Source of the DNA: Colwellia sp. RSH04
Lineage (GTDB): Bacteria > Pseudomonadota > Gammaproteobacteria > Enterobacterales > Alteromonadaceae
DNA: 64,000 bases
NCBI RefSeq assembly: GCF_003545765.1
Contig: NZ_QXIO01000011.1
Location: forward strand, 1-64,000
Direction: 5' to 3'
Notes under the pieces: generated by a model
Seen by the model: only the letters and a program-made list of their open reading frames with translations
Database searches by the model: none
What the model was told of the DNA's origin: nothing
Translations under genes and position numbers: made by a program
Shown: piece after piece, positions 52,713 to 63,332 of the stretch
Position numbering within the stretch: position 1 is the stretch's first letter
Layout of the letters: every line of letters starts with the position of its first letter

Positions 52713-54420
52713 GCAATAAATAATAACTGCGGCAGTGAACATCGCATCTTGGTTTTTATTATGCTCTTTAATTTTCTAAGCTGCCTGTGCGGCAGTGAAC
52801 TTCAATCTGGTGCTGTAGCTCAACTCCTTTAATTTCTAAGCTGCCTGTGCGGCAGTGAACGCTAAAGTCGGTTTTGGTATCTTAACTATTGCTTTCTAAG
52901 CTGCCTGTGCGGCAGTGAACGAGGCATAATTAATCCTTAAGCACGAACAAGATTTCTAAGCTGCCTGTGCGGCAGTGAACTTCTACACTCCTCTATAAGC
53001 GTTGTGCGTAAATTTCTAAGCTGCCTGTGCGGCAGTGAACTTGGCTTAGTTGGAACTGCGTTAGCCGCTTTATTTCTAAGCTGCCTGTGCGGCAGTGAAC
53101 TTTAACTTCATAATCATCGAGCATTACCATAATTTCTAAGCTGCCTGTGCGGCAGTGAACACGAACTAATCGTTCAGGCTTTTGTTGATTGCTTTCTAAG
53201 CTGCCTGTGCGGCAGTGAACAACTCGCCAACAAACGCCGTCATATTTGTAGTTTTCTAAGCTGCCTGTGCGGCAGTGAACCAAATACAGTGTCACTTGTT
53301 CCTAACCTGTTATTTCTAAGCTGCCTGTGCGGCAGTGAACGTTGATATTGATGCGGGTGTTTATATCAATGCTTTCTAAGCTGCCTGTGCGGCAGTGAAC
53401 CGATTAACAATCTTTATTCTGCGCTTGTTGGCTTTCTAAGCTGCCTGTGCGGCAGTGAACCTAGACAAAGCAGAAAACCAAGAAATTCAAGATTTCTAAG
53501 CTGCCTGTGCGGCAGTGAACAGTTGATTTTTACTTTAATAATTAGCTTTGCATTTCTAAGCTGCCTGTGCGGCAGTGAACTAAAAGAGCTAGGCATAGCA
53601 CAATACGGTACATTTCTAAGCTGCCTGTGCGGCAGTGAACAGACCATCAATAGCAATGAAATTGAGCTTAGATTTCTAAGCTGCCTGTGCGGCAGTGAAC
53701 ATGGCGTTCAATTTTTAGGGGATGGAACTAGCTTTCTAAGCTGCCTGTGCGGCAGTGAACTAAGCGACTGGATTGAGAATAAAGACGTAAAATTTCTAAG
53801 CTGCCTGTGCGGCAGTGAACGGGCACGGAAAGCAAACGGCATTTAGCCACTATTTCTAAGCTGCCTGTGCGGCAGTGAACAGAAGGGCTGAGCGGGGAAG
53901 AAATAGAAGAAATTTCTAAGCTGCCTGTGCGGCAGTGAACACGATGACGATCAGTCCGTACCAGCGCATCACTTTCTAAGCTGCCTGTGCGGCAGTGAAC
54001 TGTGGAAAGTCGCAAGCGTTGTGTTGCTAGGCTTTCTAAGCTGCCTGTGCGGCAGTGAACTTGATGCACAAGAAATAGAACATCGCAAAGAATTTCTAAG
54101 CTGCCTGTGCGGCAGTGAACAATGCTAGAACGTATAGCGAGCATAAATACTATTTCTAAGCTGCCTGTGCGGCAGTGAACCTAGGGCATAAATCAGCACT
54201 TGACGCGGTAAATTTCTAAGCTGCCTGTGCGGCAGTGAACTATTAGTTATGCGACAACCAACTAAAAGATTATTTCTAAGCTGCCTGTGCGGCAGTGAAC
54301 CTAATTCTGTTAACGTGTAAGAGTCGCCAGCTTTTCTAAGCTGCCTGTGCGGCAGTGAACTTAATGGTATTAACGGTTTAAACGGTACTAATTTTCTAAG
54401 CTGCCTGTGCGGCAGTGAAC
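52713..54420 (-). CRISPR. Type I-F CRISPR array, 28 perfect repeats plus one degenerate, 28 spacers
   Basis: The unit is exactly 60 bp: a 28-bp repeat and a 32-bp spacer, as normal for type I-F. Read on the minus strand, the repeat begins GTTCACTGCCGC, has the CTGCC-GCACA-GGCAG hairpin cut by Cas6f, and ends CTTAGAAA. All 28 repeats from 52773-52800 to 54393-54420 look identical. The last copy (52713-52740) keeps only its first 13 bases on the minus strand. That degenerate end marks the trailer, so the leader is at 54421 and above, and spacers near 54361 are the newest. Transcription is on the minus strand, away from the cas genes. The spacers show no visible repeats among themselves. Confidence 0.98.
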
Positions 54421-54634: not shown

Positions 54635-55243
54635 TTAAAACCAAGGTACTGTAGCTTGATTATCTTTTTCATTTTCACTTTTTTTACTTAAGCCATAACA
54701 ATTAAAGTCACCATGTTTCACTTGCTTACTTAACTCACAATCAATGAAAAACTTAAATTGTTCGTCTTTGGTTAAACTTTTGGCATTGATGTAAGGTAGT
54801 TTAGTTTGCTTATCTTCAAAACTTGCATAATGTTGTAATGCTTGTTCAAAGGTTTCCTCATGTCGTTTCGCTCTACGCCTTGCTAAACGAGCAAGATTTG
54901 TTGCAAACTGCTTTCGGCTAAAACAAGCATATTGTGTTATTGACTCTGGCACTGCCTTTATTGAGGTAATGTGTGTGTGGTCTGCAAAGCGCTTTAGCCA
55001 AGCATTAATTGATAATTTATCTAATAATGCTTGCGAAGGTGAAAATATTCGCAACTTATTACCTAACGGAAATACTTTATCCTTGTCAAAATATTGCGGA
55101 AAAGATAAAGCAATTTCAGACTGGTTATCACCCACTTTATTTTCAGCAAGCGCAATATGCACCTGTTGATAAACCTTAAACCAAATAAAACCTAAGGTGA
55201 TTTCACTGTCTGGTAATAAGGTGATATCGAGATAATACTTCAT
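54635..55243 (-). CDS. cas6f: Cas6f (Csy4) crRNA endoribonuclease
   Basis: The 202-residue protein cuts the pre-crRNA at the repeat hairpin and stays bound in the type I-F Cascade. The catalytic histidine is at position 29 (VYQQVHIALAE), the same place as in Pseudomonas Csy4. The arginine-rich helix (QFATNLARLARRRAKRHEE) that grips the RNA stem is clear. Last gene of the cas operon, 23 bp after cas7f. Confidence 0.95.
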   Translation of the reverse strand: MKYYLDITLLPDSEITLGFIWFKVYQQVHIALAENKVGDNQSEIALSFPQYFDKDKVFPLGNKLRIFSPSQALLDKLSINAWLKRFADHTHITSIKAVPESITQYACFSRKQFATNLARLARRRAKRHEETFEQALQHYASFEDKQTKLPYINAKSLTKDEQFKFFIDCELSKQVKHGDFNCYGLSKKSENEKDNQATVPWF

Positions 55244-55266: not shown

Positions 55267-56292
55267 CTATTTATCACTTTCACCAAAGACACCACCACGT
55301 ACTAAAATAGCCATTACATAGTGTTCATCTTCAATACGCTCAAGTTCTGCCCCTCGTGCCCACTTATCAAAGAAAGTATAAAAGTCTTGTTTATCTTTAG
55401 GAGTACGGTATGCCTTACCTAAATTAGTAACTGTACCGTATGGTTCAATCGCAATTGGCCCTGCTGATTTTTCAGCATCATCAAACTCGGGGTACCAAGT
55501 ATCTATACTACGTAAAGCATTACCTAGCTTTTGCGAATGCATCGCGGCAATGTCTTTTACTGCATACAGAATTTTACTTTTTTTACCTTTACCTTTATCA
55601 AGCACTAATTCTTCACTTGGGTATACTTCTTGTGCATTGCCTACCTGAACAAAACAATTAACTTCTAGCATTAAAAAGTCATCTTCACTAGCGAGGGCAT
55701 TGGCAATGCGATCGCCTAGCTCAATTACAGCTGCATCATCACAGTTAAAGTGTTTAGTGCTAAATTGTGTCGCGTCAAATGTCCATGTTTGTTTCGCATC
55801 TTTATTCAATGCATTAACTTGTACTTCAATATTTTCAGCACCAACACGGTTTCGCCATAAAAAACGGCCATTAGCAATATTTAACGCATAACGTTTACCT
55901 AGTTCTTTAAAACCCTCTTTACCTACATAGTCTCGTACTGCACTGGCATAACTTTGTTTGAATAACGCGTTGTTACAAGCTGATGGCTGTTGCACCCCAC
56001 CCAATACTTTTAAGGTAAAGTGTAATTTTAAGGTGTCTTGCTCAGGGGCTAAGGCGCAGCTGTCTACCGTTTGTAAATTAGCTTTTTCTACTTCAGCATT
56101 TAATTTCACTGGATCATTTTTTATTGCTGCCTTTAAACGGTTTGAAATAGTACCTCGTACTGATTTTTCAATTAATGCTAGTGGCGTTACTACACTTCTA
56201 TCATCCCATTGTGTGCCATACATATAACCATCAGAAGGTACTAATTTTTTTTCAAATGCCAGTACTGATGCGGTGTCTTGATTTTTAGCCAT
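55267..56292 (-). CDS. cas7f: Cas7f (Csy3) Cascade backbone protein
   Basis: The 341-residue protein is the repeated backbone subunit that wraps the crRNA. It has the Csy3 pattern VLAFEKKLVPSDGYMYGTQW near the start, GRFLWRNRVGAENIEVQVNA in the middle and PYGTVTNLGKAYRTPKDKQD near the end. AAAGGAAATTATC precedes the ATG. 84 bp separate it from cas5f, the largest gap in the operon. Confidence 0.95.
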   Translation of the reverse strand: MAKNQDTASVLAFEKKLVPSDGYMYGTQWDDRSVVTPLALIEKSVRGTISNRLKAAIKNDPVKLNAEVEKANLQTVDSCALAPEQDTLKLHFTLKVLGGVQQPSACNNALFKQSYASAVRDYVGKEGFKELGKRYALNIANGRFLWRNRVGAENIEVQVNALNKDAKQTWTFDATQFSTKHFNCDDAAVIELGDRIANALASEDDFLMLEVNCFVQVGNAQEVYPSEELVLDKGKGKKSKILYAVKDIAAMHSQKLGNALRSIDTWYPEFDDAEKSAGPIAIEPYGTVTNLGKAYRTPKDKQDFYTFFDKWARGAELERIEDEHYVMAILVRGGVFGESDK

Positions 56293-56376: not shown

Positions 56377-57342
56377 TTACAAGTCGCTTAACAACTCGTC
56401 TTCGGTTTGCTGTTGTGTATTATTTTGCACACATAGATATAAATTGCTGCTTTCTTGCGCTTGGTAACGCCATAATATTTCATCTAGTGCTCTGATTTTA
56501 TGTGGCATTTTAAATTCACCTAAAGTAACAACACTTTCAGCAAAACGATGTGGTGTATCAGGGTCACGCTGATTTTTTGCTGCTCCCAGTTCAGTTAAAC
56601 CGTGAAACCCCGTGGCAATAGGCACTAACCAGCCTTGGGCTTTTCGCTTACTTGACCAAGTCACCTTCTTTTCATCACTAGATGCTTTATTATCTTGTTC
56701 GCTGCTACTCTCTTCATTGCTATCGCAAGAATGATGAATCGCCAAATAATCAATTAAGGCATCCATAGCATCTTGCCCTTGCTGCATAGCCTCAATCATT
56801 AAGTCTCGTCGTTCTACCAGTGCATAACCCGGCATAAGCTTACGTGTTAATTGATTAAGATCGCTGACATTACCCTGCTCTACTTTAAAAAACTCAGCTG
56901 GTTTAAAGATTAAAATATCTCCGCCCGCTATTTTCATGCAGCTATTAAGCAGGTGCGCTATTTTTTCTTGCACAAGCAATTCATCTTCTTTTTCAATACC
57001 TGAATATTCAATCACTAACGAAATATCTAAGTGACAACGTGCTTCTTCGATAAAGGCACTTCTTGCTCCCGTTTTATCTAATGGGTTACCCGTACCAACA
57101 ATTGAGTGAACAAAGTCACCAACACCTTTATGGGTTTGTAAATCACATTGGTGGCTTATTACTGCTGTACCAATAAATTTTAATGAATCAAAACCGTTAG
57201 CATTTAATTTTCGCTGTAAGGCGTGTACAGCACCTAACCACGCTGTCATGGCTGGAAAACCAATGGTAAATGGGCTAGAAAGTGCATTGGCGTTATGTAC
57301 TTTTAAGTGCGGTATTAGTAATAGCCGTTTTATATTATTCAT
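56377..57342 (-). CDS. cas5f: Cas5f (Csy2) Cascade subunit
   Basis: The 321-residue protein caps the 5' handle of the crRNA. Csy2 signatures are NALSSPFTIGFPAMTAWLGA near the start (the region that reads the CC PAM side together with Cas8f), GWLVPIATGFHGLTELGA and the terminal EILWRYQ. An internal acidic low-complexity insert (EESSSEQDNKASSDEKK) is at about 215-231. It overlaps cas8f by 4 nt. Confidence 0.94.
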   Translation of the reverse strand: MNNIKRLLLIPHLKVHNANALSSPFTIGFPAMTAWLGAVHALQRKLNANGFDSLKFIGTAVISHQCDLQTHKGVGDFVHSIVGTGNPLDKTGARSAFIEEARCHLDISLVIEYSGIEKEDELLVQEKIAHLLNSCMKIAGGDILIFKPAEFFKVEQGNVSDLNQLTRKLMPGYALVERRDLMIEAMQQGQDAMDALIDYLAIHHSCDSNEESSSEQDNKASSDEKKVTWSSKRKAQGWLVPIATGFHGLTELGAAKNQRDPDTPHRFAESVVTLGEFKMPHKIRALDEILWRYQAQESSNLYLCVQNNTQQQTEDELLSDL

Positions 57343-58622
57343 TTTAAAAACTCCCTGTTGTGCTCAACAATATTCGCAAACAATAAGCGCTCTTCTTCCC
57401 CTAGCGTTATGGCTTTTCTCGCTAATACTTTTTCATAACTACGGCTTATCCAACGAGATATTTCAATGACCAGCTTATCTAGCCATTGGTCTGAACTTTC
57501 TCGCTCCTTTTCATAATCACTGTGTAGCCAAGTCAGTTGATGACTCGCAATTTTTGATGTTTCTTGGTGGTATTGTGCTTGTGATATAGCTCGAACCGAC
57601 CACATTTTTTCAATCAGTAAGTCTATAATATCTTGCAGGTAGCGATCTCGTTTATCACGTGTCTCTATGTTATTCCTGTGATCTTCAAATACCTTATGTA
57701 ACGCTTTAAATGTATCTGCGTAATCATATTTTTTAAATGACTCTACAAAAAAATCACTGGTGGGAAAATAAACATCACGCTTTTCAATACTCGGAGGTAG
57801 TGACGATAACAAATGTGCTTTACCGCCATTTTGATTATTTAGTACGCTAATATTTTGCGGCTTAGTGCCTCCATAACCTATAGTAGTTAGGCCATAAATT
57901 TCACTAAAACCTTGCTCACTAAATTCATTTTTACGCTTTTTATCCCTCAGCTCTTTTATTTCATCTGAAAAACGTAACTTATCAAGGCGTGAGCGTAGTT
58001 GATAAACCATGCCTGAATTGGTTAACAATGATAATTGGTGATAGTTATTAGTTTCGCTATTGGCAATATCATTATCACCTACGGGAAAATATACTTGTTT
58101 TATTTTTGAGCTGGTTATATTTTCAGCAGAGCTTTCTGCCATGGCCATAAAGCCTGCCTTCAATTCTTGATAACTTACTGATTTTATCGTTAACAAGGCC
58201 GTTGCTAAGTCAGTGTCTTGTTGAATATGTTCTAATAAACTCTTGCCATCAGCCATCATTAAGGTGAGAAACTTATAAACATCTAATGCGGCTGCATTGC
58301 CTAGAGCATCAGTGGCTGCAGATACATTACCTGTTTTCAAAAAGCCATCCTCAATACGCTCAACATTAACCAATACTGACGAAACATAACCATTTTTATT
58401 TTTTCTGGCACTCGGGTGACTAAAAGTACAAGGATGGGTAGCCATTGATATTTGACCCGCCCGTTTTGCCGCGTTAGGTAACCACTCATTTAACGAAAAT
58501 TGCTGTTCACAAACTTGTGATAATTCTTTAACCTGTAACTCATCCATTGATGCTTTAACATTTTTCTTTAGCCAAGTTTCTTTACGTTCGATAAAAAAAC
58601 TATTTATTGCTGGATCTAACAT
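57339..58622 (-). CDS. cas8f: Cas8f (Csy1) large subunit
   Basis: The 427-residue protein belongs to the Csy1 family, which recognises the PAM and recruits Cas2-3. Family patterns include QFSLNEWLPNAAKRAGQISM, THPCTFSHPSARKNKNG and TIGYGGTKPQNISVLNNQNG. It starts directly after the cas2-3 stop (58623), with GGAGG of the preceding coding end as ribosome site, and overlaps cas5f by 4 nt. Confidence 0.94.
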   Translation of the reverse strand: MLDPAINSFFIERKETWLKKNVKASMDELQVKELSQVCEQQFSLNEWLPNAAKRAGQISMATHPCTFSHPSARKNKNGYVSSVLVNVERIEDGFLKTGNVSAATDALGNAAALDVYKFLTLMMADGKSLLEHIQQDTDLATALLTIKSVSYQELKAGFMAMAESSAENITSSKIKQVYFPVGDNDIANSETNNYHQLSLLTNSGMVYQLRSRLDKLRFSDEIKELRDKKRKNEFSEQGFSEIYGLTTIGYGGTKPQNISVLNNQNGGKAHLLSSLPPSIEKRDVYFPTSDFFVESFKKYDYADTFKALHKVFEDHRNNIETRDKRDRYLQDIIDLLIEKMWSVRAISQAQYHQETSKIASHQLTWLHSDYEKERESSDQWLDKLVIEISRWISRSYEKVLARKAITLGEEERLLFANIVEHNREFLK

Positions 58623-61600
58623 CTAACCTCCTTTGTTATTTACTTTAACCAAACCAAACTGGTCGTTATATTCATATTGTGCATTATCTCGTTCAACAAA
58701 ATTGATTTCACCATAACGCAGTGATACGCGTCTTTTACTGTTTAACCACTCATCATCTAGGTGATTTGATAATAAAACTTGGTAGTTGCGTTCAAACCAT
58801 AGATTATTTTTTTCTATTTCAGTTAACTGCACTTGCGTAATATTAAGTATGCCTTCGCGGTTAATCGCCTGATTATATTCATCAAGCAATGCCTTACCAG
58901 CCTCATCTTTTTGGGTGAAATAGCATTGCTCACTATCAGCGTTATAAAATAAAAACAGGTTAACGCTGACTTCGCTCTTTCTAAAAGGTGTAAGTACTTG
59001 CGGCAAAGCAGTTAAATACCATGTTTCGGTTAAATAACCTTGCAAGGCATTTGCCCCATAAGCGGTGTAGTTTGCTAATTCTGTATTTATAACTCGATGC
59101 TCTAACAACGCTAAATATTGCCCCTCGGACGATTCAGGAGTTTTTATGCGAGGGATTGCATTAAGGTTATTCGCTAACTGCCTAGTGTTAATCAACTTCA
59201 TTAAATTATGCGTTGGCAAAATGGCCTTTTTGTAATCTTCACTATCTGGCTTTTTATAAAAACCATGTTCAAAACCTGGACGAGTAAAGTATTGCTCGCC
59301 TTGTTTATCATTCGCTTTAAAGGCTTTAATGTTATATTGCATTAAACCTATATTTGCCTGCTCTACCGCATCAACTCTGTGCCGTCGAACGCGCCCTGCT
59401 AGCTGTACAATGGAGCGGTAAGACGAGGGTTCAATAATGGCCCAATCAAAATCATGATCACGACCAACTTCTTCTACTGGCGTTGCCACTAAAATGAAAA
59501 TTATATTCTGTGTTGGTTGTTGTTCTGAATTAGTTGAAACACCACTTTTTTGATGGATACTATCAAGATGGCTTCTAATTACGGGGTCACTAAAGGCTTG
59601 TTGTTCTTGCCCTGATTTTTCTTTTCGCTTTAATACCGCATCAAGATGTTTTTCTTGTTCGTGGCGCAATAAAAGTACTTGCTGGCTGTGATATGCCATC
59701 ACTCTCGCCTGAGTATTTTCTTGTTGGCTGTTATTATTAAAGTCAGCCTGTAACAAATATTTTGTTAGTTCAATACACGGTGAAATATTCGCTATACGCA
59801 CCACGCCAAAAGATACTTTTATGCCTGTTTTGTTATCAATACTATGATGTTGTTGATGCTTTGTTAAAATGGCTTGTTGCACCGTAGAAAAATACTGCTC
59901 TACTTTTGTTTGTTCAGATAATAGTTTGTCTTGCTGCGATGTCTTTTGTTTTACTTCTGCTAATAGTGGGCAGGCAATAATTTCCGCTTTGCGTTTGGCC
60001 ACTTGCTTTGTCAGTTTAGTTACTCGTTTTTCAATAAAGCTATCATGATTATTTTGATAGTTTTCAAGCGCCTTTTCAGTGTCTGTTGTTTTGATAGATT
60101 GAACCTGTGTGCTAAATTCATCTACCCAAGCACAACCTATTTCTGCTTTAGCATTGTCTCTGTTGTTACTAAAAATCTGCCAGCCTTTTTTATAGGCATT
60201 AAAATACCCTTGGGCTAAATCGGGTGGGATTGTCGCTGATGAGATCATCACTTTACGCCCCAACATACCCGCTAAATGGGTTAAACGGCCAATAGCGATT
60301 AAATCATCTCCGGTAAAATCATCTATTTCATCAATCACCAGATCAGATGACATTAAACGTAAACTTGGCAAAATATAACGACCACCGCGTTTGGTTTCTG
60401 TTGCCGCCATGATGTGATCTATTGTGCAAGCAAGTACAGGTGCATATAAAAATTGTTTGTCTTTAGTGCAAGTTAAAACAGTTGCTAAACCCTCTTCGGG
60501 AATATCGCACTCATAATCAATAAACTCGTCTAATAAAGCTTGTTTAGATTCAGATCCTAATACTTCCTCTGTTATTTCATTTTCAACAACTAGCTTTTTA
60601 GTTTGTTCACCATGGTGTAATTCTGCTACTGCTCTTGAGCCGATTAACACTGCTAATTGTGCTTTTGATAAACCAATAAGATTTCGGTATTCATCACCAG
60701 TTTGCAAAGTTAAGGTGCGTAAACCAAGGGCTAGAATATAACGTAAGCTATTACCATCGCTTGATAGCGCGCGCATTACCTTAGCATTGGCAAATGTTTT
60801 TCCGCAGCCTGTACTTGCCATATTCACCGCAAAAAAACCGACTGTTTCTTTAGCTTGTTGTGCTTTCCAATCGTTAATTTTAGTTACCGCTTTATCTTGC
60901 CAGCTAAATTGTGCAGGGCTTTTAGCTCTTAATACTTGAATGTCTGTTGCTGCAGGCGGTTCTTGTTCAAAAGCAGGTAATAAATGCGCAGTATTGAGCG
61001 CATTTCTGGCAACCCCTACTAAATGTTCATCTAATTTTTGTTTAAGTTCGCTAGTTTCTCTGTCTGTATTGGCAAATAACCCTGTGCTATTTTGCCAGTT
61101 TTTTGCTGCATCTTGTGATGAATAGAAATGATCACCTAACATTAAACATAAACGGGCATGATGTAATACTAAGCGGTAGCTACCATCTTTTATTGCTGAT
61201 TCAAGAAAGGGTAAATTACTCTTTAAACTATTTGCCCAGCGTTTTATTTGTTTTAGCCATTCATTAGATTCGCTTAATAAGCCGTTTGGAAACTCAAAAC
61301 AATTTTTGACGCGTTTTTGATATTCTTGTGGGTCTTGAGTGTTTTCATAACCCCATTCTTGGCTGATACGATTTAATAAAGTGTCTAAACTTTGAGACTC
61401 AACACCCAGCCACGCTTTTCTGGTCTCTTTTTGACTATATGAAAAATTAGGTAATCTATGATGGGATACAATTAACCAAGCAATTAACTTTGCGGCGTCA
61501 GGTAGTTGTGCCAACGGGCGTTCTTTTTTCTGTTTAACTATTTGTGATAATGCTTGCTCTGATAACTCGCCATTGCTAAGTTCATTCAACCATGTTTGAT

Positions 61601-62102
61601 CTGATTTAGTGCCTACCAAAGCATTAAGTAACAAGACAGAGATCCACTCATGCCTGATAGGATCCCCCTTGAATTTATTTTTGCTGTTTGGCGTTAGTTT
61701 TTCTTGAAATAACTTTGAAGCCTTGCCCCAATCATGCAACAGTGCTGATATTGCCGTTAAGGACTTTATCAACGGTAAGTATTTCCAATCATTTTCAATT
61801 TCACTGTTTAACAAATTTTTCCTTGTACTATTTACTGGCACCACACCTTCACCATTAAACTTCGCTTTATTACCCACTACCCATAAAAACTGGCTGCGAG
61901 AGCGTGTTCTAATCCAATGACAACTTACCGCAGTACTTTTGCTGGCAGTTTGGCGCAGCATTTTTTTAACCGTTTGTAGGCCTTCTTCCGTGATAAGTGT
62001 TTGCCAAGTATTGTCACCAATACGGTTGGCAAAGGCATCAAGCACTCTTCGGGTTTTCTTTAGGGCATTTTTTTCGCATTGCGAGACAAAAGTAACCATC
62101 AT
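58623..62102 (-). CDS. cas3: Cas2-3 fusion: nuclease-helicase of type I-F
   Basis: The 1159-residue protein fuses an N-terminal Cas2 domain (about 1-90) to an HD nuclease and an SF2 helicase, the form specific to type I-F. HD residues are H123-D124 (LLHDWGKA), H151 (RHEW) and HH 214-215 (SHHRLP). The helicase has Walker A STGCGKT ending at 436, DEID at 591-594, SSATIP at about 621 and an arginine motif VQLAGRVRRHR. With Cas1 it acquires spacers; with Cascade it degrades DNA. Its ATG overlaps the stop of the small zinc-ribbon gene by 4 nt. Confidence 0.96.
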   Translation of the reverse strand: MMVTFVSQCEKNALKKTRRVLDAFANRIGDNTWQTLITEEGLQTVKKMLRQTASKSTAVSCHWIRTRSRSQFLWVVGNKAKFNGEGVVPVNSTRKNLLNSEIENDWKYLPLIKSLTAISALLHDWGKASKLFQEKLTPNSKNKFKGDPIRHEWISVLLLNALVGTKSDQTWLNELSNGELSEQALSQIVKQKKERPLAQLPDAAKLIAWLIVSHHRLPNFSYSQKETRKAWLGVESQSLDTLLNRISQEWGYENTQDPQEYQKRVKNCFEFPNGLLSESNEWLKQIKRWANSLKSNLPFLESAIKDGSYRLVLHHARLCLMLGDHFYSSQDAAKNWQNSTGLFANTDRETSELKQKLDEHLVGVARNALNTAHLLPAFEQEPPAATDIQVLRAKSPAQFSWQDKAVTKINDWKAQQAKETVGFFAVNMASTGCGKTFANAKVMRALSSDGNSLRYILALGLRTLTLQTGDEYRNLIGLSKAQLAVLIGSRAVAELHHGEQTKKLVVENEITEEVLGSESKQALLDEFIDYECDIPEEGLATVLTCTKDKQFLYAPVLACTIDHIMAATETKRGGRYILPSLRLMSSDLVIDEIDDFTGDDLIAIGRLTHLAGMLGRKVMISSATIPPDLAQGYFNAYKKGWQIFSNNRDNAKAEIGCAWVDEFSTQVQSIKTTDTEKALENYQNNHDSFIEKRVTKLTKQVAKRKAEIIACPLLAEVKQKTSQQDKLLSEQTKVEQYFSTVQQAILTKHQQHHSIDNKTGIKVSFGVVRIANISPCIELTKYLLQADFNNNSQQENTQARVMAYHSQQVLLLRHEQEKHLDAVLKRKEKSGQEQQAFSDPVIRSHLDSIHQKSGVSTNSEQQPTQNIIFILVATPVEEVGRDHDFDWAIIEPSSYRSIVQLAGRVRRHRVDAVEQANIGLMQYNIKAFKANDKQGEQYFTRPGFEHGFYKKPDSEDYKKAILPTHNLMKLINTRQLANNLNAIPRIKTPESSEGQYLALLEHRVINTELANYTAYGANALQGYLTETWYLTALPQVLTPFRKSEVSVNLFLFYNADSEQCYFTQKDEAGKALLDEYNQAINREGILNITQVQLTEIEKNNLWFERNYQVLLSNHLDDEWLNSKRRVSLRYGEINFVERDNAQYEYNDQFGLVKVNNKGG

Positions 62103-62350
62103 AGGCCATCTGCCTTTTTGTAAAATTCAAAGCCACAATCATTACAGCACCATGCTCGTTGGTATTCATTCATTTCAAAACTGCAACCTGCGGGAGCATA
62201 TTTGCCTGTTTCAAACATTAGAACTGCCTTTTCGTTAGGTTCACCATAAAGGTAAGTTGCAATTGAATTACCATGGCATTGTCTGCAAATACGCGGTTTA
62301 CGCTGAAATACATACTTACCATTGTTCAGAGTGTTGTTGTATTTACTCAT
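62099..62350 (-). CDS. Small zinc-ribbon protein inside the cas operon
   Basis: The 83-residue protein has C22-x2-C25 (CRQCHG) and C69-x2-C72 (CCNDCGFEF) with C56 and C68 between, a likely zinc ribbon. The spacing CRQC, YLYGEPNE, AGC, W-C-x-D-C-G-x-x-F matches a widespread family of small uncharacterised bacterial zinc-ribbon proteins. I chose the ATG at 62350, with GGAAAAATTC before it. It overlaps cas1 by 8 nt and cas2-3 by 4 nt, so it is translated between the two adaptation genes. It is not a standard type I-F component. No function can be assigned; an adaptation or regulatory role is only suggested by position. Confidence 0.8.
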   Translation of the reverse strand: MSKYNNTLNNGKYVFQRKPRICRQCHGNSIATYLYGEPNEKAVLMFETGKYAPAGCSFEMNEYQRAWCCNDCGFEFYKKADGL

Positions 62351-63332
62351 GAATTTTTCCATGAGTATCCAGCGCCACAGCTTTAACTTGCTCAAACATA
62401 AAGTCGAGCGCCTTGTGGTCGGTAAACGCTTGCAGTATTTGTTGCCGAAACTCTTGCTCGGTGGCATTTTCTTTAGCGCAAATAAATGCCCACGGTAATA
62501 CAATGGCATCTTTGATTAGGTCTGCAATATCAAACACTAAAGCACCGCGTCTAGTTTTACCATGCATTACGGCAAAGCCATGAGGAATGCCTAATACCCA
62601 AAGAGTACAAGCGGCTAATCCATAGGCTAAGTAGTTGCCGTGGTTTAAAAAGTCGTTTGCTTTGTCTGTGCTATTTCTATCAAAGGCACGATGCTGACGT
62701 GTGAAGTTTTCTGTTTTGGTGGTGTTTGCGGCAAATTTGTAAAGTGCTTTGGTAAGCTGTGCTTCAGTAAGTAATAAATCAGCGGGTTTAGCTGCGGTAA
62801 GCATTCTGTCATTAAAGCGCTCTAGTGCGACTTCAATACTGCTATCCGCGGTTGTAAAACCTTCACTTTTTAACTCTCGATCACTTGTCCAAACTTTGTG
62901 TAAAAATTCAATACGTGCTTGTTGAAAGTACTTGGCGGCGGTTAAACGCTTTGCATCATCAAACCAAAATTTCATCCACCCTTGTAAATACTCGGTTGGA
63001 CGATATTCACTTTGTGGAGTAAACCATTCTATAGGTTGTTCTGTATCATTAGCCATATACAAGGGGGTACCACCACCACCTGAAAAACCAATAAGCACAC
63101 CTGCTTGGGCTAGCATTCTGACTGCTGCTTGGGTAATTGATGTGCCATTGCCTAATAACAGTATTGTGCTATTGGCAATAGGGATATTAAAGTATTGGTT
63201 TTCTTTGCTGGCCTCGGTTAGATATAAAACTCGGCCATCTTTTTGCATTACTCGACAATATTCTAAGTAATACATATTGGCGCGTTTTGAATGCAATATG
63301 CTCTTTAAATCTGAAGGTGATAAATCATTCAC
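62343..63332 (-). CDS. cas1: Cas1 integrase of type I-F
   Basis: The 329-residue integrase inserts new spacers at the leader end of the array. The metal ligands are visible as E190 (LLLTEAQL), H257 (AVMHGKTRRG) and D268 (LVFDIADL). The I-F signature GFSGGGGTPLY is near residue 85. First gene of the cas operon, followed with an 8-nt overlap by the zinc-ribbon gene. Confidence 0.97.
   Translation of the reverse strand: MNDLSPSDLKSILHSKRANMYYLEYCRVMQKDGRVLYLTEASKENQYFNIPIANSTILLLGNGTSITQAAVRMLAQAGVLIGFSGGGGTPLYMANDTEQPIEWFTPQSEYRPTEYLQGWMKFWFDDAKRLTAAKYFQQARIEFLHKVWTSDRELKSEGFTTADSSIEVALERFNDRMLTAAKPADLLLTEAQLTKALYKFAANTTKTENFTRQHRAFDRNSTDKANDFLNHGNYLAYGLAACTLWVLGIPHGFAVMHGKTRRGALVFDIADLIKDAIVLPWAFICAKENATEQEFRQQILQAFTDHKALDFMFEQVKAVALDTHGKIHE

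Follow-up and report, generated by a model that had tools for sequence, protein, structure and literature searches.

An extra zinc-ribbon gene between cas1 and cas2-3 of a Colwellia type I-F CRISPR operon, with relatives upstream of cas3 in other type I loci

Type I-F (I-F1) operons of the CRISPR (clustered regularly interspaced short palindromic repeats) systems comprise cas1, cas2-3, csy1 to csy4 and an array with a 28-nucleotide (nt) repeat, and a direct succession of cas1 and cas2-3 is typical of them, if not defining. A complete operon of this kind lies on the minus strand of the 64,000-nt stretch of Colwellia sp. RSH04 analyzed here (contig NZ_QXIO01000011.1, positions 1 to 64,000; hereafter the window), in the order cas1f, ZnR, cas2-3f, csy1, csy2, csy3, csy4 and array, where ZnR is a small zinc-ribbon gene and the subject of this report (Table 1). 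The flanking genes were assigned with NCBIfam and PADLOC, with all six, cas1f, cas2-3f and csy1 to csy4, above their NCBIfam cut-offs; the cas2-3 fusion is seen as a Cas2 domain (PF21384) at the N-terminus of Cas3, and the repeat count derives from 27 overlapping 100-nt copies with two repeats in each. The locus shares with described I-F operons its cas genes, array and repeat length, and its cas2-3 starts with ATGATG like nearly all near relatives compared, but it departs from them in the extra gene that parts cas1 from cas2-3, so that the usual direct succession is missing. A systematic screen of CRISPR-linked genes was reportedly carried out in 2018. Our literature search yielded no account of this gene or of a zinc-ribbon gene at cas3, and no paper in which CRISPR, a zinc ribbon, cas3 and an accessory gene occur together; as it did not extend to most subscription papers or to supplementary lists of CRISPR-linked genes, an earlier listing is possible. 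In PMC10910872 the word "zinc" occurs once, in a figure legend, for a SWIM zinc-finger domain. What appears to be new is the presence, in a type I-F operon, of an additional zinc-ribbon gene that overlaps its neighbors.

Table 1. The type I-F locus of the window (E, expect value; ORF, open reading frame)
Feature	Positions	Strand	Basis or remark
cas1f	62343..63332	minus	TIGR03637, E 5e-146
Overlap of cas1 end and ZnR start, 8 nt	62343..62350	minus	
ZnR (P0001), 83 residues, two CxxC pairs	62099..62350	minus	ORF, overlaps, homologues
Overlap of ZnR stop and cas2-3 start, 4 nt (ATGA)	62099..62102	minus	
cas2-3f, HDWGK and GCGKT motifs present	58623..62102	minus	TIGR02562, E 2e-280
csy1 (cas8f)	57339..58622	minus	TIGR02564
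csy2 (cas5f)	56377..57342	minus	TIGR02565
csy3 (cas7f)	55267..56292	minus	TIGR02566
csy4 (cas6f)	54635..55243	minus	TIGR02563
CRISPR array, at least 28 copies of a 28-nt repeat, 60-nt period	52773..54420	not assigned	next to csy4

An earlier note on this DNA had described an 83-codon gene with two CxxC motifs, overlapping cas1 by 8 nt and cas2-3 by 4 nt, and the coordinates bear out each of these statements: the ATG lies at 62350, the stop ends at 62099, the overlaps follow from the cas1 end at 62343 and the cas2-3 start at 62102, and the gene occupies the 240 nt between the cas1 stop and the cas2-3 start. Its reading frame is intact, its cysteine pairs are C22xxC25 and C69xxC72, with an additional cysteine, C56, after G55, and its G+C (0.385) falls inside the range of the cas genes (0.343-0.41). 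A search of 5.8 billion proteins returned three direct homologues (P0002-P0004), 79-80 residues long and 64-72% identical to the window protein, which retain all four CxxC cysteines; a longer in-frame ORF of 136 residues begins at 62509, and the homologues start near the ATG at 62350. Their conservation rules out a chance ORF and, together with the intact frame, indicates that ZnR is a real gene; we are confident, short of certainty, that it is a real, intact, cas3-adjacent accessory gene. Judging from its sequence, the product probably binds zinc.

A profile of the window protein and these three homologues, used to search 395 same-family genomes (threshold E 0.001), matched four of them, the window's own and G161, G218 and G138, and in the latter three the match invariably lies in a CRISPR locus. 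The type I-C locus of G161 reads WYL regulator, RhuM/Fic gene, ZnR, cas3, cas5, cas8, cas7, cas4, cas1, cas2; the type I-E loci read WYL, ZnR, a gene for a 345-residue protein, cas3 and the remaining cas genes (G218), and WYL, a YggL-type gene, ZnR, cas3 and the remaining cas genes (G138). Family searches confirmed Cas3 in all three, Cas8c, Cas7c and RhuM in G161, Cse1 in G218 and G138, WYL and KilA-N in G218, and YggL in G138, and the other names in these loci come from reading sequence and gene order. In I-F, I-E and I-C alike, ZnR lies upstream of cas3, directly or one gene off, and cas1 adjoins it only in I-F. This adjacency recurs in 4/4 family-level matches, counting the window, of which two belong to one genus, one has an intervening gene and one is broken. 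Given that the position at cas3 recurs across subtypes while that at cas1 does not, the earlier assignment of ZnR to the adaptation unit is too narrow and finds no support, the I-E and I-C relatives lying near cas3 and far from cas1.

In 21 same-family genomes the Cas1f match stayed below threshold; these comprise 16 further loci that were examined, G138 and G218, the broken fragment G141, and the weak matches G157 and G361. None of those 16 loci contains a ZnR gene (best E 0.22); in 13 of them a WYL gene precedes cas3 by 79-487 nt, and none was seen in three (one cut by the contig end). Separately, the 345-residue protein beside ZnR in the G218 locus (L008:10441-11478) overlaps the type I-E cas3 by 14 nt and has no match in Pfam or PADLOC.

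When the two I-E relatives were added to the profile, 32 proteins were recovered at E 0.01 or better, the window protein included, and the resemblance to a family of uncharacterized function noticed earlier is upheld by this search and by the alignment, which place the protein in a wider uncharacterized zinc-ribbon family. Its members are mostly 71-101 residues long, with the pattern CPxCGS..IA..LYG....GKI.LGGC....W.C..C; in the 30 aligned rows (short P0030 and P0032 were omitted) C22, C25, G36, G55, C56, C69 and C72 are invariant. The window protein shares with the family two CxxC knuckles, the IA..YG and GC motifs and the cysteine pattern, whereas it and its close homologues are set apart by YVFQRKPR, by a first knuckle (CRxC or CIxC) that lacks the customary proline, by AGC in place of GGC, and by WCCN. 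The tree assigns the window protein to a branch of 8 rows (support 96/94) and the I-E/I-C forms to one of 7 rows (94/86), without resolving how the two join; both belong to a 26-row set (95/87), outside which lie the restriction-linked rows G624, G845 and G730.

No family member scanned reached a Pfam cut-off, that of any DNA-binding family included, and the window protein had no match in NCBIfam or PADLOC (in the latter 0 families at E 1) and no significant one in PHROGs (best E 0.21). Weak matches of its relatives to HypA, GFA and the IS1595 ribbon stay under the cut-offs, and most of the 24 PDB sequences found by sequence search at E 1 or better are zinc-finger repeats, eukaryotic or designed, that contain CPxC-like runs; we take these matches as generic. 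The Lar restriction alleviation protein is a small CPxCG protein that acts on type I restriction; the window protein differs from it (PF14354) in showing no match at E 1, the distant relative G070 giving a sub-threshold one (E 0.013). The best predicted structure (pLDDT 79.6, pTM 0.66) consists of strands and one helix and bears only a weak likeness to solved zinc ribbons.

Beyond the family, 4/394 order-level genomes match (the window, G624, G730 and G070), as do 7/312 class-level genomes (the window, G845, G842, G1018, G1046, G925 and G1037). In G624 the relative directly follows hsdR, which exceeds its NCBIfam cut-off; in G730 it follows an hsdR-type gene and a PLD nuclease gene; and in G845 it lies in a type I restriction operon, hsdM being recognized at E 8e-56 though below the NCBIfam cut-off and hsdR by PADLOC. 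No defense gene was recognized around the G070 relative, the matches in G842 and G1037 are broken, and these and G1018 were not used as support. The G1046 relative has ordinary surroundings, and that of G925 (L140) stands in a group of small genes next to an integrase of integron type (identified by reading the sequence), a setting which suggests that the wider family may travel in gene cassettes. The five relatives on plasmids are distant ones with varied neighbors (an Abi gene and a methyltransferase lie close to one of them), and the G218 form has no match on plasmids. Used alone as a query on 99 relatives, the window protein matched only the window and G070, and the 4 genomes of the genus of G046 gave no match. 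A phage origin was considered and rejected: no match was found in phage records, and none was confirmed in viral contigs in a pattern-limited search.

A survey of the I-F cas1|cas2-3 junction places the window locus in context. Cas1f exceeded the cut-off in 57/395 family genomes and 59/350 order genomes, five being common to both, which gave 111 genomes with 112 loci; 111 of these loci were examined (G507, at a contig edge, was left out), and 108 were readable across the junction, L044, L072 and L120 being without a cas2 start. The gap between the two genes is -20 to +14 nt in 83 of the 108 junctions, in support of the earlier claim that ZnR is an added component, and it exceeds 14 nt in 25, measuring 42-60 nt in 7 and a computed >100 nt in 18, two of the latter owing to an early stop in cas1. 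Recognizable protein-coding cargo of five unrelated kinds is present at 13 junctions: ZnR (1), an MTSW family (5), KilA-N (2), RHH-ParE (2) and a VapB type (3). The MTSW family, whose proteins start with MTSW or MTSY and are 108-132 residues long, occurs at L035, L045, L098, L099 and L101 (G264, G356, G613, G631 and G094); BLASTP matched 8/10 pairs, at 26-86% identity, and the two proteins tested had no Pfam or PADLOC match. KilA-N genes follow cas1 at L039 and L068 (G122 and G357), that of L039 being the PADLOC candidate PDC-S22. The toxin-antitoxin loci (L032, L046, L067, L071 and L115) carry, between cas1 and cas2-3, either RHH antitoxin and ParE toxin genes (G167 and G194) or VapB on the opposite strand (G130, G367 and G457), accompanied in two of these three by a recognizable PIN gene. 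The assignments rest on Pfam for single representatives of the KilA-N, ParE, PIN and RHH genes at the junction and for two VapB sequences, and on likeness for the remaining copies. No clear gene was seen in four further gaps of >100 nt (L048, L054, L063 and L110), nor in the broken-cas1 locus L133. The 13 junctions with cargo suggest that this site is an accessory slot tolerating insertions.

The cargo also bears on how the overlaps are to be read. MTSW genes overlap both neighbors by 4 nt in L098 and L101. As with ZnR, it is the inserted gene that forms the 4-nt overlap with cas2-3 in three MTSW loci and in the KilA-N loci. ZnR shares with the KilA-N/PDC-S22 genes the I-F junction and overlaps on both sides but encodes an unrelated protein. 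Because genes unrelated to ZnR overlap their neighbors in the same way, an overlap by itself is no proof of functional membership, contrary to what the earlier note had drawn from it. KilA-N genes also stand just before cas1 in 6/18 I-E-like loci (L008, L147, L151, L154, L157 and L158). According to the review PMC12737573, CrePA toxins typically carry a KilA-N domain. The KilA-N genes seen here may be linked to toxins of that kind, whereas our literature search brought up no such counterpart of the zinc ribbon.

In light of the recurring position upstream of cas3, which it fits, we tentatively propose that ZnR is a small zinc-ribbon protein that partners or modulates the Cas3 nuclease-helicase, encoded by a recent, translation-coupled accessory gene. 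The I-F operon would have acquired it, probably recently, from a mobile uncharacterized zinc-ribbon family in which two branches have members upstream of cas3, directly or one gene away (I-F, I-E and I-C). Translation of ZnR would be coupled to that of cas1 and would in turn couple that of cas2-3, and such coupling would cause ZnR to be made together with Cas2-3; the protein could then, for instance, limit or license the action of Cas3 on DNA, rather than take part in Cas1-Cas2 integration proper.

Several observations weigh against such a role. ZnR is present at 1/108 readable I-F junctions and in 1/39 genomes of the genus (8 of which showed cas1f), the other 38 being without a match, a rarity that makes it dispensable; its I-C copy is broken by one internal stop; net charge is not conserved, ranging from -1 to +11 in the 12 relatives checked; the other four predicted models score only 61-67; family members in ordinary surroundings exist; and the cas2-3 start region of the window is identical to that of loci without ZnR. 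From this identity and the 38 genomes without a match it follows that either the gain was recent or loss is common. The earlier note had linked absence from related I-F loci to a chance insertion: the gene is indeed absent from the other 107 junctions, but, being intact and with conserved homologues, it is a real gene.

We rate as equal to the Cas3 modulator, and hence as no less tentative, the alternative that ZnR is a passenger, one of several unrelated mobile genes in a tolerant junction with no role in CRISPR immunity, whose start-stop overlap is retained since loss of coupling would hamper cas2-3. This fits the rarity of ZnR, the broken I-C copy and the other cargo at the same junction, and it is further favored by the cas1 C-terminal tail beside the junction, highly variable in the relatives compared, and by distant family members in likely integron and ordinary surroundings. 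However, the three distant close-profile matches all lie upstream of cas3, in other subtypes and with a different junction and neighbors, a preference of place not expected of a pure passenger, and the homologues are conserved.

We rate the two further explanations below both of these. ZnR might be a small DNA- or RNA-binding zinc-ribbon protein that adjusts how the cas operon is transcribed or translated, in keeping with its place near the WYL gene at the operon head in the I-E and I-C loci and with the weak structural likeness of its model to the zinc ribbon of the repressor NrdR; this appears unlikely, as in the window the gene is internal to the operon, after cas1, no WYL gene was recognized among ORFs of at least 60 residues up to contig position 74000 (by reading, with no family search), no DNA-binding family reached the Pfam cut-off, and the charge varies as described. 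That ZnR joins the Cas1-Cas2/3 complex and alters spacer capture, as the earlier note proposed, could draw on its overlaps with both genes and on the fusion of Cas2 to Cas3 in I-F, by which a Cas3 partner would also meet Cas1, but it is very improbable given relatives far from cas1-cas2 in I-E and I-C and unrelated cargo with the same overlaps.

Returning to the Cas3 modulator, in its broadest form, which we consider doubtful, ZnR would be an undescribed accessory of Cas3-type nuclease-helicases that is synthesized alongside the motor and governs what it does on DNA; I-F, I-E and I-C systems would have acquired it, as would type I restriction operons in the case of more distant branches. If ZnR does act on Cas3, three type I subtypes would have this accessory factor in common. 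Should it instead be a passenger, the survey still points to the I-F cas1|cas2-3 junction as a place where accessory genes, toxin-antitoxin modules and KilA-N genes dock repeatedly, and it yields candidates, the MTSW family foremost, for the study of genes that ride in cas operons.
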